From contig JAIELX010000003.1 in assembly GCA_019752635.1 (NCBI GenBank), positions 1 to 64,000 on the forward strand: a stretch of 64,000 bases of DNA, written 5' to 3'. A program made the position numbers and the translations under genes. Under the pieces are notes generated by a model. That model searched no databases, was not told the DNA's origin, and saw nothing but the letters and a program-made list of their open reading frames with translations. The DNA is from Candidatus Obscuribacterales bacterium. GTDB lineage: Bacteria; Cyanobacteriota; Vampirovibrionia; Obscuribacterales; Obscuribacteraceae. This document shows, one piece after another, positions 57,571-62,013 of this stretch (within the stretch, counting starts at the first letter, position 1; each line of letters starts with the position of its first letter).

Positions 57571-58194
57571 TTATTGATGAACCGAGAGTACCTTATCCCC
57601 TGTTTTTCCCACTCGCGCTGCATGCCACTGGCATGCTTCCTCGCAAAGCATTCCATCTTGCCCCGAATATCCGATATGGTTAAATCCAGTCTTTCGTGCC
57701 AGCGATGTTCTGATTATGTATGAAACGTAGTCGCAGGAGTTTAGCTTTGGCTCGCTTTCCAACACCTGCCACGATTCACTACGGGTGATACCACCTGCAT
57801 AGTTGTGTAAAACGTTTGTCATGCAAATGTCGAGGTCCTCGGCTAGAGCTTTCTCTAGCATCTCTGCGACAAACGCGCAGGTGTAGAGGTTATCTAGATT
57901 GGAAAATGTGCAGTACCTTGTTTCGACCTTATTGAAGAGTATCCACCTTCTCCAATATGAGCCAAACTCTCCCTCTGGACGTTTCTCTTCCATTTCGATG
58001 AATTCGAAGCGCTCGTCTCCGGCGGTTAAGTACTCGAAATGCTTTCGCAGGTCGATTCGAGCGGGTCCGTCATGCACAATCAGACAGCAAAAATCTTTTC
58101 TGGTCTGACACTGTAGAGTTCCTACGAATGCGCTGAGGTGTGCGTTCGAATGCGCGGCGTAGGTGCTAACTACAAAAGTGAGTTTGTAACTCAA
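57571..58194 (-). CDS. GT2-like glycosyltransferase
   Basis: 207 residues from a TTG at 58194 placed 5 nt after GGAGG. The N-terminus LSYKLTFVVSTYAAHSNAHLS is the typical beta-1 of GT-A enzymes, with CTFSNLDNLYTCAFV as the likely metal-binding/acceptor region (YCTFSNLDN in place of a classic DxD). It is shorter than most GT2 enzymes, ending at VLSVHQ, and may be a divergent or minimal form. Upstream in-frame GTG 58230 and ATG 58218 have no ribosome binding site. It is upstream of the large secreted protein gene on the same strand, 16 nt apart, and divergent from the WbdD-like gene. Confidence 0.72.
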   Translation of the reverse strand: MSYKLTFVVSTYAAHSNAHLSAFVGTLQCQTRKDFCCLIVHDGPARIDLRKHFEYLTAGDERFEFIEMEEKRPEGEFGSYWRRWILFNKVETRYCTFSNLDNLYTCAFVAEMLEKALAEDLDICMTNVLHNYAGGITRSESWQVLESEPKLNSCDYVSYIIRTSLARKTGFNHIGYSGQDGMLCEEACQWHAARVGKTGDKVLSVHQ

Positions 58195-58357
58195 CAGCCC
58201 CTCCTTCTCTCTTGCCATGAGTTTGGACACTCAACGTATCATGTCCATTTCCGTCGGTTTTACAGTTCGCTTACAAAAGGTGGACTGGCTCATACAATTG
58301 CTTTACGGGGATGCGCCATCATAAGTTAGCAAAAGCAGACACCATTGGGTTTTGAAG

Positions 58358-60040
58358 ATGCAAGCAACGTATAACCGAAATAGATTTACAGATATGAGAA
58401 GAAGATTCGAAAACCTGCTCATGAGCAATTGTTCTAGCGAAATCGGTGAAAACCTGTCCGAGCAAGTGTCTATTTACGACGACTCGGCCGTTGTCTCCGG
58501 TCCTGAGAAGTTCATGTTCGGCCAGACCTGTGCCATTCCGATAGACTCCGGCTTGACAGCGGTTTCGAGAATAGTTGAGCCCTTTTTCTCCAGGCTGCAT
58601 GCTGCTAACAAGACCTTCTTAGAAATTGAGGGTTGTTCCATTTTTCATAGTTTGAGAGCGCTTGAAGCCGGGGCCTCAAGCAGCGTCATTGTTGATGGTT
58701 CCGGTGCGTTGCAGGATCAGGTGCGTACTGCTCGCGGAAAATTTTCTCTGTCTCGACTCCATTCAATAAAGCTACCGGTGCAGCAGATCAGAACTCGGTT
58801 TGATCGAGTTTTAGTTCTTTCATCCGCAGATGATCATGCCAAATTGATTGAACAGTCTGGCGGTGTTTCTGGCCTGGTACTTAAGCTCGCACAACTTACA
58901 CGTGGATTTTGTATTCTTGGTTGGCGCCTTACCGAGCAGAGTGCGGATGTAACTCATGAGCCTCAGATTTTTGAACTACTGGAAAAGTATTTCGCAAAAG
59001 TAGATGTAATTGGTAGAACGGAAAACATAGTTATTTTTGTGGCGTTTGCTTCACGAGAAGTCTTTCTGCTTGGTGACGAACTCACTGGTGCTAAGACTGA
59101 CGCTCCTCTTGCAATGACAAAAGTCATTCGCAGAAAAGACCTGTGCAAGTCGCATGTTGTCCGCGCTTTCGACTGTTCCGACCACTGGCTTAAGCAATAC
59201 AACACAACCGAGGCGTTGCGGACAGAACAGATAGTAAGGTCCCTTCCCGCTGGTGCAGCTCCTGCAATTTTAGATGTTGGCACCGAAGCAGAATCGTCTT
59301 ATATCTGCATTGAAAAAGTGGAGACGTTTACTATGGATTCCCTTCGGAGGGCGCTTGACACTGACGAAAAATATTTGCGATTTGCGGTTTCGCTCCTGCT
59401 GTCGCTGGAATCATTGCGCGACCGAGGATTTATTCAACGCAGCGTTGGACTGGACAATGTGACCCTCCGAAGCGGTCAGGTAGTCTTCTATGAATTCGAC
59501 AGCATTGACGACTATGATCCGCATGCATGCGGTGCGCCCGATCTGCGCTCCGGGGGGGAGTTGCTGCGATCGGTGAACGCCGGTCGGTTCATGCGGTTTC
59601 ACAAGATTGAAGAACTCATGCTCGCAGATCCGGTCAGGGAAAACAGACTTTCGCCGTCAGATTTCATCGCTCTGATTGCTTTGATCGATTCGTCCTCTTT
59701 GGCGGAAAGTTCCGATAAGCAATTGCTTGATTTGCTTGCAAAGCTGCTCTCGGTTACTTATGAGTTCAATCAATGCATTCGACAGCGGCAATGCCTGGTG
59801 GAATCACAACTTCACGAAATCGATCAGACCAAAATACGCATCGATTTGCAGTCTAAGTTACTGGAGGAAGTGAGAGCGATGGCAGAGGCCGTATTATGCA
59901 AAGTCGAGCGACTGGAAATAGAGCAACGACAAATATTACAAAGTCGCAGTTGGAGGATTGCCGTTACTCTTCAAAAGCTAAATCAACAGATGCGCACACC
60001 GCTACGGTTGTTATCGTCAAAGCTATCGGTCGTCAGGTAA
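58358..60040 (+). CDS. WbdD-like protein: degenerate methyltransferase, pseudokinase and coiled coil
   Basis: 560 residues. N-terminal third (about 75-240): a methyltransferase-like fold in which motif I (D/E-x-G-x-G-x-G) is degraded (FLEIEGCSIFHSLRALEAGA). Middle (about 260-440): a kinase-like fold resembling the LPS-kinase branch; the catalytic loop (GDxRPWN in WbdD) reads QRSVGLDN and the metal motif DFGSI reads EFDSI. C-terminal: a coiled coil (about 470-530), then SRSWRIAVTLQKLNQQ, a segment common at the ends of glycan enzymes. The order equals that of WbdD, which caps and measures O-antigen chains. Both catalytic centres appear damaged, so a scaffold or length-control role is inferred. 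Followed directly by a GT2. Confidence 0.7.
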   Translation: MQATYNRNRFTDMRRRFENLLMSNCSSEIGENLSEQVSIYDDSAVVSGPEKFMFGQTCAIPIDSGLTAVSRIVEPFFSRLHAANKTFLEIEGCSIFHSLRALEAGASSSVIVDGSGALQDQVRTARGKFSLSRLHSIKLPVQQIRTRFDRVLVLSSADDHAKLIEQSGGVSGLVLKLAQLTRGFCILGWRLTEQSADVTHEPQIFELLEKYFAKVDVIGRTENIVIFVAFASREVFLLGDELTGAKTDAPLAMTKVIRRKDLCKSHVVRAFDCSDHWLKQYNTTEALRTEQIVRSLPAGAAPAILDVGTEAESSYICIEKVETFTMDSLRRALDTDEKYLRFAVSLLLSLESLRDRGFIQRSVGLDNVTLRSGQVVFYEFDSIDDYDPHACGAPDLRSGGELLRSVNAGRFMRFHKIEELMLADPVRENRLSPSDFIALIALIDSSSLAESSDKQLLDLLAKLLSVTYEFNQCIRQRQCLVESQLHEIDQTKIRIDLQSKLLEEVRAMAEAVLCKVERLEIEQRQILQSRSWRIAVTLQKLNQQMRTPLRLLSSKLSVVR

Positions 60041-60045
60041 GGAGC

Positions 60046-60918
60046 ATGTCGATATCCCTCGGTGTTGGTATCGTCACCTACAATAATTCGAACAAGCAGA
60101 TTGCGACAGCGCTTTCTTCCCTATGCAAGTCCATGGACAGAGCTGGAAACTGTCACAGTATCGATTCTGTGATTCTAATTGCTCAAAACGGTTCGGAGAG
60201 CAATCAGAACTTGATCGACGTTGTTTGTGCCGCACAGAGAGTCGTTCAGCTATCTGCGACCGGAAATATCGGCTTTGGCAGTGCGATGAATGAGTTGATG
60301 CGTACTGCATTCTGTGAAATCGGGACCGACTACTTCTTTGCTCTCAATCCTGATACATACACTCATCCCGACGCTATTTCCAATCTAGTAAGAGCCGCAA
60401 TAACAAATGCAGATTCTGTGATAGAAGCACGGCAGTTTCCCGACGAGCATCCAAAGTATTACTCGCCTGAGACTGGTGAGACCGATTGGGCCTCAGGGGC
60501 CTGCATGATGTTGCCGCGTTCCGTTTACGATGCTACTGACGGGTTTGACAGCAATTTTTTTATGTACATGGAAGACGTTGATTTAAGTTGGAGAGCCAGG
60601 GTTGCTGGCGCAAGAATACTGTACTGTGCTAGCGCACTGATTGGGCACCAGACCGCCGATAGGGATTATTCTTCGTCATCCGAGCGCTTGATGTTTGAGT
60701 CCGGTCTCTATTTGGGGTGCAAATGGCAACACCAGTCGTTTCAGCAATGGTGCGCAGAGGAACTTCAACACCGATGTGGATTGGCGCCCTTGCAAGTTCG
60801 ATCGATCCATCGGGCAAGTTTGAAGCGCTGCGAGTTATTGCCAGCAAAATGGCGTACAACCGGAAGCTCTGTCGCAAACTTCGACCATTATTTCTCGTTT
60901 GCACGCACGCGGTGGTAA
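60046..60918 (+). CDS. GT2 glycosyltransferase, rhamnosyltransferase-like
   Basis: 290 residues. SISLGVGIVTYNNSNKQIAT begins the GT-A fold; FFALNPDTYTHPDAI gives the NPD metal motif, and ASGACMMLPRSVYDATDGFD with MYMEDVDLSWRARVAGARI matches the acceptor/ED loops of rhamnosyl-type GT2 enzymes of O-antigen synthesis. TAAGGAG overlaps the stop of the WbdD-like gene and lies close to the ATG at 60046; the frame extends upstream into that gene and is not used. Part of a glycan cluster. Confidence 0.9.
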   Translation: MSISLGVGIVTYNNSNKQIATALSSLCKSMDRAGNCHSIDSVILIAQNGSESNQNLIDVVCAAQRVVQLSATGNIGFGSAMNELMRTAFCEIGTDYFFALNPDTYTHPDAISNLVRAAITNADSVIEARQFPDEHPKYYSPETGETDWASGACMMLPRSVYDATDGFDSNFFMYMEDVDLSWRARVAGARILYCASALIGHQTADRDYSSSSERLMFESGLYLGCKWQHQSFQQWCAEELQHRCGLAPLQVRSIHRASLKRCELLPAKWRTTGSSVANFDHYFSFARTRW

Positions 60919-60924
60919 AGGATC

Positions 60925-61578
60925 ATGGGAATTTGCGTACAGCTCCTGCTGGACAATGCTGAACCGGAAGAGCTTCTCCGGAATCGAATATTTTCGGTTG
61001 CTATAAGTCATTTGGAGGAATCAGATCACATAAATCTTGTGGCCTCGGCAGAAGGCGCGGCTGAGCGCGGGGCTCAACTAATCAAGGATTACCTTGTAGA
61101 ACTCAACTCTGCATTTCAGCCCACTGTTACATTAGTCGACCGGTTCAATCTTAAACAAACGATTCGTCGAATAGCCGAGGTTTGCCAAGGTGATGCGGTT
61201 TGCTTTTCTTGTCCGCAAGAGATTGTGTATCACTCCACTTATGTACGCCTTGTATCTGTGATCCGGCGAATGCAACGCGAAGTCGCTCTGGGTGCGTTTA
61301 GAGTCGCCCTTGTCTCAAATTCGGGGGCAGACCATTACGTACTGGGCAAAGAGAGTTTCTCGGTCGCCCAGTACGATGACACCGAACGGATTCGAGCTGT
61401 CTTTCCACTTTCGGCGGGCGCAATAAGCAGCCGAGAACTGTTGGCTCGTTCGCAGGACAGTTGGAGTAAGGAAGGGAATCTGGCTGACGCACTCAAAGAC
61501 ATGCTACTGAGTGTTCGGCCGAGAGGTTTCGAATTGTCGAATTTACCCTGTGCCGATCTGCTAGCAAAGAGCTTCTGA
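60925..61578 (+). CDS. hypothetical protein of the glycan cluster
   Basis: 217 residues starting 6 nt after the GT2. The pattern VQLLLDNAEPEELLRNRIFSV, a Rossmann-like alternation, NLVASAEGAAERGAQLIKDY and DAVCFSCPQEIVYHSTYVRL suggests a divergent GT-A-like or nucleotide-binding fold, but no motif confirms it. No signal peptide or membrane helix. The position implies a role in the same surface-glycan pathway; unknown otherwise. Confidence 0.7.
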   Translation: MGICVQLLLDNAEPEELLRNRIFSVAISHLEESDHINLVASAEGAAERGAQLIKDYLVELNSAFQPTVTLVDRFNLKQTIRRIAEVCQGDAVCFSCPQEIVYHSTYVRLVSVIRRMQREVALGAFRVALVSNSGADHYVLGKESFSVAQYDDTERIRAVFPLSAGAISSRELLARSQDSWSKEGNLADALKDMLLSVRPRGFELSNLPCADLLAKSF

Positions 61579-61602: not shown

Positions 61603-62013
61603 TTAGCGGCGTTTGGGAGCCGCTTTCTTTGCGGAGGCTTTGGGCGCGGGCCGGGTATTCATGTAGTGAACAGATTCATCAGGAAACTCTTCGAAGAAAA
61701 TGTCGAGGACCCGTGAGACTACCACTTGGGTGAAATCATCGCGCGACAACTCAGGGGTATAGCAGTTGGCTAAGCCTGCCTTGTCTACGATGCGGAGAAT
61801 GCCCTTTTCCGCCAGGCGTACCATGGTCGTCATGACAGTGGTATAGGCGATTTGCCTTTGTTGGCGTAGTACATCGTAGATATCTCGCACCGTTACGGTC
61901 GGGTCGGCCTTCTTCCAAACCAGTTCCATGATGTCGACTTCCAAGTCGCCCATGAACTTGCGCAAACCCTCTTGATTGAAACGAAACGAGGCATTGTCAT
62001 CTTCGAGTCGCAT
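61603..62013 (-). CDS. BlaI/MecI/CopY-type repressor
   Basis: 136 residues. The winged helix-turn-helix LEVDIMELVWKKADPTVTVRD, YTTVMTTMVRLAEKGILRIVDK is typical of BlaI/MecI/CopY. The C-terminal ARPAPKASAKKAAPKRR tail is basic and probably helps DNA binding. The usual partner (a BlaR1-type protease/sensor) is absent. It is divergent from gmhB across 164 bp, which may be its operator region, but no symmetrical site is evident. Confidence 0.88.
   Translation of the reverse strand: MRLEDDNASFRFNQEGLRKFMGDLEVDIMELVWKKADPTVTVRDIYDVLRQQRQIAYTTVMTTMVRLAEKGILRIVDKAGLANCYTPELSRDDFTQVVVSRVLDIFFEEFPDESVHYMNTRPAPKASAKKAAPKRR

Follow-up and report, generated by a model that had tools for sequence, protein, structure and literature searches.

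A three-gene cassette in the window (the whole 64,000-nucleotide stretch of DNA analysed here) is present a second time in the same genome. In the window copy, the first gene has kept an open frame and has lost the motifs of both of its catalytic centres. Its predicted product has the domain order of the glycan-capping protein WbdD, and the paralogue in the second copy has all the catalytic motifs intact. We tentatively read the pair as a duplicated cassette in which gene 1 may now be a non-catalytic scaffold for an active GT2 glycosyltransferase. Bifunctional methyltransferase-kinases set the length of many bacterial surface glycans. A genome with both an intact copy and a doubly dead one, and a separate GT2 for each, would naturally set catalysis apart from a ruler or scaffold function, a separation that in E. 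coli is approachable by mutation only. The two copies make it directly testable whether the coil and the dead domains alone organise glycosyltransferases.

The window cassette and its second copy

The features of the window cassette are as follows.

58270-58298: weak promoter-like site upstream of gene 1, no better than the chance level of the scan
58358-60040, + strand: gene 1 (P0001), WbdD-type methyltransferase-kinase-helical protein, both catalytic centres lost
58490-59062, + strand: methyltransferase-like domain of gene 1 (residues ~47-237), 28% identical to the methyltransferase domain of the paralogue P0005
58622-58642, + strand: degraded SAM motif I, EIEGCSI; P0005 has DLGANAG at the aligned columns
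58826-58834, + strand: Ala-Asp-Asp; P0005 has VHW, and WbdD has F-H132-H133, essential for the methyltransferase
59105-59686, + strand: kinase-like domain of gene 1 (residues ~252-445)
59435-59458, + strand: degraded catalytic loop QRSVGLDN, catalytic Asp replaced by Ser; P0005 has HRDLHADN and WbdD HDDVRPWN
59492-59500, + strand: EFD at the DFG position; P0005 has DFS and WbdD DFG
59714-60037, + strand: predicted helical C-terminus of gene 1, Pro-free through residue 545, with a basic QSRSWRIAVTLQKL element at its end
60046-60918, + strand: gene 2 (P0002), GT2 glycosyltransferase, NPD and MEDVDLSWRAR motifs conserved
60925-61578, + strand: gene 3 (P0003), 217 aa, a degraded, shortened GT2, by sequence and synteny homology
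61204-61233, + strand: FSCPQEIVYH in gene 3, where the DxDD site is lost; P0008 has FLDYDDVLYH and P0007 (the C17 copy) FLKADEALYH
61605-61624, + strand: terminator-like hairpin 3′ of gene 3, no better than the chance level of the scan

The frame of gene 1 comprises 560 codons from the ATG at 58358, or 562 from a TTG at 58352, and ends with the stop at 60040. Its GC content at the three codon positions (0.56/0.40/0.48) shows the same coding pattern as in the neighbouring genes. A sequence-only reading of this region had proposed a protein with methyltransferase-like, kinase-like and coiled-coil parts in that order; the ORF and the order are confirmed, with a predicted helical C-terminus as the third part. 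The same reading had rightly placed a GT2 after gene 1; the most likely start of this GT2 is the ATG at 60046, five bases past the gene 1 stop, and not 59896. Gene 3 begins six bases past the stop of gene 2.

When gene 1 was used to search its own genome, one other locus was found (G000:C17:79425-81041, E 6e-29). The protein encoded there, P0005 (604 aa, G000:C17:79404-81218), is 25% identical to gene 1 over 550 residues (E 7e-37), with 28% identity in the methyltransferase domain, 27% and 31% in the two kinase lobes, and 23% in the tail. It is followed by a GT2 that is 38% identical to the window GT2, and then by a third protein that matches the 217-aa protein (E 1e-6); order, strand and close spacing are as in the window. 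Since each of the three genes has a C17 counterpart in the same order, the whole cassette is present twice in the genome. The three-gene unit that had been supposed is supported.

A search for the same three-gene set in related genomes had been suggested; it yielded the second copy in the same genome and none in the related genomes searched. There was no further copy in 60 near, 382 class and 386 phylum genomes (overlapping sets, ~770 genomes of the phylum), nor in plasmid, phage and viral collections. Two scans of 84,980 species also gave no further copy, although the short peptide patterns used make these weak negatives. Either the cassette is rare, then, or its other carriers are unsampled.

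The rest of the window, read by eye, consists mostly of housekeeping genes. No O-antigen ABC (Wzm/Wzt) exporter lies within it, and neither cassette has a polymerase or exporter beside it. The sole Wzt_C exporter of the genome belongs to a cluster on contig C53, and the 19 kb read there contained no WbdD-like gene near that cluster. A divergent GT2-like gene adjoins the window cassette (57571-58230, − strand). A search of 40 near genomes at E 1e-6 gave no relative, and its membership in the cassette is not supported, there being no copy beside P0005. Elsewhere in the genome, at G000:C1 ~129017-129199 (L054), we observed a stop-free frame of 18,420 codons encoding a giant protein; a 4000-residue piece of it matched the FHA domain five times and otherwise few known domains.

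Active sites of the three genes

The motifs EIEGCSI, QRSVGLDN and EFD are present in gene 1 as the sequence-only reading had quoted them. At the aligned columns, P0005 and gene 1 read VLDLGANAGYF and FLEIEGCSIFH, HRDLHADN and QRSVGLDN, and IDFSW and YEFDS, respectively. Because P0005 is intact at these columns, the changes in gene 1 are losses and not a guess of the alignment. Intact motifs at shifted positions, which would have spoken against such losses, were looked for in gene 1, and none was present; the sole ILDVG, at residue 306, belongs to the kinase N-lobe.

The positions of WbdD D351, N356 and D369 are occupied in gene 1 by Ser, Asn and Glu, while P0005 has the required kinase residues. 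(The WbdD numbering was checked on the sequence for H132, H133, D82, D351, W355, N356 and D369.) At H132/H133, gene 1 has Asp/Asp; P0005, in which motif I is intact, has one His there, in VHW. Four essential or metal-binding residues of WbdD (D351, H132, H133 and D369) are therefore replaced in gene 1. In WbdD, the D351A, D351E, H132A and H133A mutants are inactive, and a strain with kinase-dead WbdD lacks surface O-antigen (PMC3482155). From these residues we infer that both catalytic centres of gene 1 are inactive. Its kinase-like domain has kept the β3 Lys, the catalytic-loop Asn and the αF Asp positions and, in our reading of the direct alignment, a Glu aligned with WbdD E274; since these remain, nucleotide binding without normal catalysis is possible.

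P0005, in turn, apparently is an active methyltransferase-kinase. In Pfam it matches Pkinase (2.3e-6, under the curated cut-off) and PrmA (6.8e-6, over the cut-off), and Pfam methyltransferase families at 1.3e-5. A chance kinase resemblance of gene 1 is ruled out by P0005.

Gene 2 matches Glyco_tranf_2_3 in Pfam (E 9.5e-8) and has the GT-A motifs NPD and ED..L.WR. NPD and MEDVDLSWRAR are kept, with small variations, in gene 2 and in all four aligned relatives, and the GT2 motifs are retained in both cassette copies. In G012 and G119, which belong to another genus of the family, a second GT2 comes immediately after the gene 2 orthologue, and its site is intact (FLDYDDVLYH or FLDHDDVVYH). The third genes of both cassettes are related to this second GT2, and a two-copy profile of gene 3, run over 60 genomes, retrieves exactly that syntenic gene in G012. 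Gene 3, previously described as an unknown 217-residue protein, is therefore recognisable as a degraded GT2. It lacks the DxD metal site, and the degradation is further advanced in the window than in the C17 cassette. A more distant gene 2 orthologue (L044, 7288-8190, genome G014) lies among acyltransferases and membrane proteins, with neither a second GT2 nor a WbdD-like gene.

Selection on the cassette and its possible role

To estimate what unselected evolution would have done to gene 1, neutral drift of P0005 DNA was simulated. Drift to 27% protein identity produced ~22 stops, with a minimum of 13 in 60 simulations, and drift to only 60% identity already produced 12. The gene 1 frame has no stop or frameshift in 562 codons, which rules out a pseudogene with breaks. 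Because no stops are found against ~22 expected, and because the similarity to P0005 is spread over all domains, we conclude that during most of its history selection has maintained gene 1, though for something other than catalysis. A recent relaxation of selection is possible, since none of the genomes searched adds a second species with the gene, and relaxation after long selection would fit part of the open-frame evidence.

The same data bear on whether the cassette is a redundant duplicate being lost, with genes 1 and 3 unselected and open by chance. Two of the three genes lack catalytic sites, gene 3 is shorter than its relatives, and the cassette is missing elsewhere in the family, including the one further genome sampled from the genus, which is 66% complete; all of this would suit such a loss. 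The absence of stops and frameshifts, the even similarity over all domains (23-31% per domain), the full conservation of gene 2 and the preserved close gene spacing argue against it, and we consider this explanation unlikely.

Our working model for gene 1 is an oligomeric, membrane-near platform. A three-gene cassette, consisting of a WbdD-type methyltransferase-kinase-coil protein, a GT2 and a second GT2, was duplicated in the lineage. The C17 copy apparently stayed active, and its product presumably phosphorylates and methylates the end of a glycan. Gene 1 of the window copy has lost the SAM loop, both phosphate-binding His, the catalytic Asp and the Asp of DFG; gene 3 has lost the GT2 metal site, and gene 2 has remained intact. 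Gene 1 would then most likely have become a non-catalytic scaffold. With its helical C-terminus and basic end the protein would sit at the membrane as an oligomer, and the dead domains would bind glycan or hold the sole active glycosyltransferase in position. It may also mix with active P0005, lowering or tuning capping. In WbdD the C-terminal helix makes a trimer, and coil-bearing terminators organise polymerases (PMC11231755). The intact C17 paralogue, the relation to WbdD, the open frame, the spacing of five and six bases and the complete motifs of gene 2 are consistent with the scaffold. Against it stand the mean pLDDT of 36 (gene 1) and 35 (gene 3), since single-sequence structure predictions at this level are too low in confidence for use, the tail of ~100 residues, the missing adjacent exporter or polymerase, and a pocket that keeps Lys, Asn and Glu, so that nucleotide binding or another chemistry is possible. 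Nor did the genomes searched include a second species with a conserved pseudoenzyme. A more specific version, which we regard as somewhat unlikely, makes gene 1 a dedicated pseudoenzyme that, with the dead GT2, would serve a single active glycosyltransferase as a non-catalytic platform and would tune P0005, so that glycan ends or length would be set by competition and not by catalysis.

Gene 1 could also be an enzyme with changed chemistry, its methyltransferase fold perhaps binding a non-SAM ligand; this we hold to be quite unlikely. Kinase-fold proteins without the HRD Asp can still transfer AMP or glutamate, SelO and SidJ being examples, and gene 1 has retained the β3 Lys, the catalytic-loop Asn, the αF Asp and Glu at the positions of WbdD E274 and D369. 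Polyglutamylation by a bacterial pseudokinase is cited in PMC9758233. The SAM loop is, however, destroyed outright, which means that the methyltransferase half would need a wholly new role, and D351E and D351A abolish WbdD activity (PMC3482155).

The suggested role of gene 1 as a chain-length ruler that sets glycan length is conjectural. Its predicted C-terminal helices span only ~100 residues, the heptad periodicity of the tail is not above shuffles (199 of 1000 were equally strong), no exporter or polymerase is adjacent, and the mean pLDDT is 36. Elements of the type HSRSWRVTAPLRR, resembling the basic end of gene 1, were seen in L045 and L047. Together with L046 (all of genus g23), these are proteins of ~1040-1080 residues that, by eye, contain a sulfotransferase-like part, a helical stretch ending in a SRSWRVTAPLRR-like element and two GT2 domains; beside them lie even longer proteins built of repeated NPLxHFL..G units.

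The short coil and the lack of a polymerase or exporter beside either cassette would also fit a unit whose product is no polymer but a short oligosaccharide of defined structure, linked to lipid or protein. Neither copy would then concern chain length, and gene 1 in both would decorate or scaffold a single-sugar step. The g12 GT2 orthologues sit with a second GT2 and an initiating sugar-phosphate transferase-like protein, and with no WbdD-like gene, in keeping with such a product. The methyltransferase-kinase-coil proteins of known function, on the other hand, cap long O-antigen chains (PMC3482155, PMC11231755), and this alternative seems improbable to us.

Comparison with WbdD and other known systems

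Gene 1 alone has no significant match in Pfam, NCBIfam or PDB, and its proposed homology to WbdD emerges only through P0005 and the two-copy profile of both proteins. The best PDB match of this profile is WbdD (4UW0/4AZW, E 1.3e-5), with both domains collinear. Rho kinases rank closely behind in the same search; the kinase half, taken by itself, therefore does not point specifically to WbdD. In single hhalign comparisons with two WbdD fragments, the profile gave E 2.9e-5 for the methyltransferase and 8.9e-8 for the kinase. An N-terminal class I methyltransferase followed by an ePK-like kinase, in WbdD order, is found in P0005 by Pfam and in gene 1 by end-to-end alignment.

Like WbdD of E. coli O9a and Klebsiella O3 (4AZS, 4AZW, 4UW0), gene 1 runs from a methyltransferase through a kinase to a C-terminal helix or coil, and it is associated with glycosyltransferase genes. 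Unlike WbdD, it lacks the SAM loop and the equivalents of D351, H132, H133 and D369, has no Wzm/Wzt beside it, and is shorter (~560 against 708 residues) with a much shorter coil; overall identity is very low. By architecture, gene 1 appears to derive from a WbdD-type protein; it is not filed as WbdD because it failed the catalytic and genomic-context tests. From P0005 it differs in its catalytic motifs, which are all intact only in the C17 copy, and it shares with it the three-gene order and close spacing.

The methyltransferase half of P0005 is closer to that of the kinase-first protein L030 (32% over 151 aa, E 6e-13) than to that of WbdD, and gene 1 and P0005 may therefore form a separate family that shares the WbdD domain order. 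In L030 (703-2067, genome G410), the order is the reverse of that of WbdD: a kinase-like loop, DGHPWNVFF...FLDWGSF, comes first and the methyltransferase second, resembling the Lani_1194/NoeA type. Kinase-first families were rejected as the closest kin of the whole protein, only the methyltransferase half matching and the domain order being reversed.

The papers searched described no WbdD-type protein that is dead. The Lcin_0519 and Lani_1194/NoeA families and Klebsiella O7 ORF6 resemble gene 1 in combining a kinase with a methyltransferase, in many cases together with a coil, and in lying in loci for envelope glycans; their authors set them apart from WbdD, and their active-site residues are largely preserved (PMC9758233, PMC11231755). 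That a kinase without catalytic activity can take part in exopolysaccharide synthesis has a precedent in EcpK of Myxococcus (PMC12004946), which differs from gene 1 in being of the BY tyrosine-kinase type, in serving a Wzx/Wzy pathway, and in its unrelated fold and partners.
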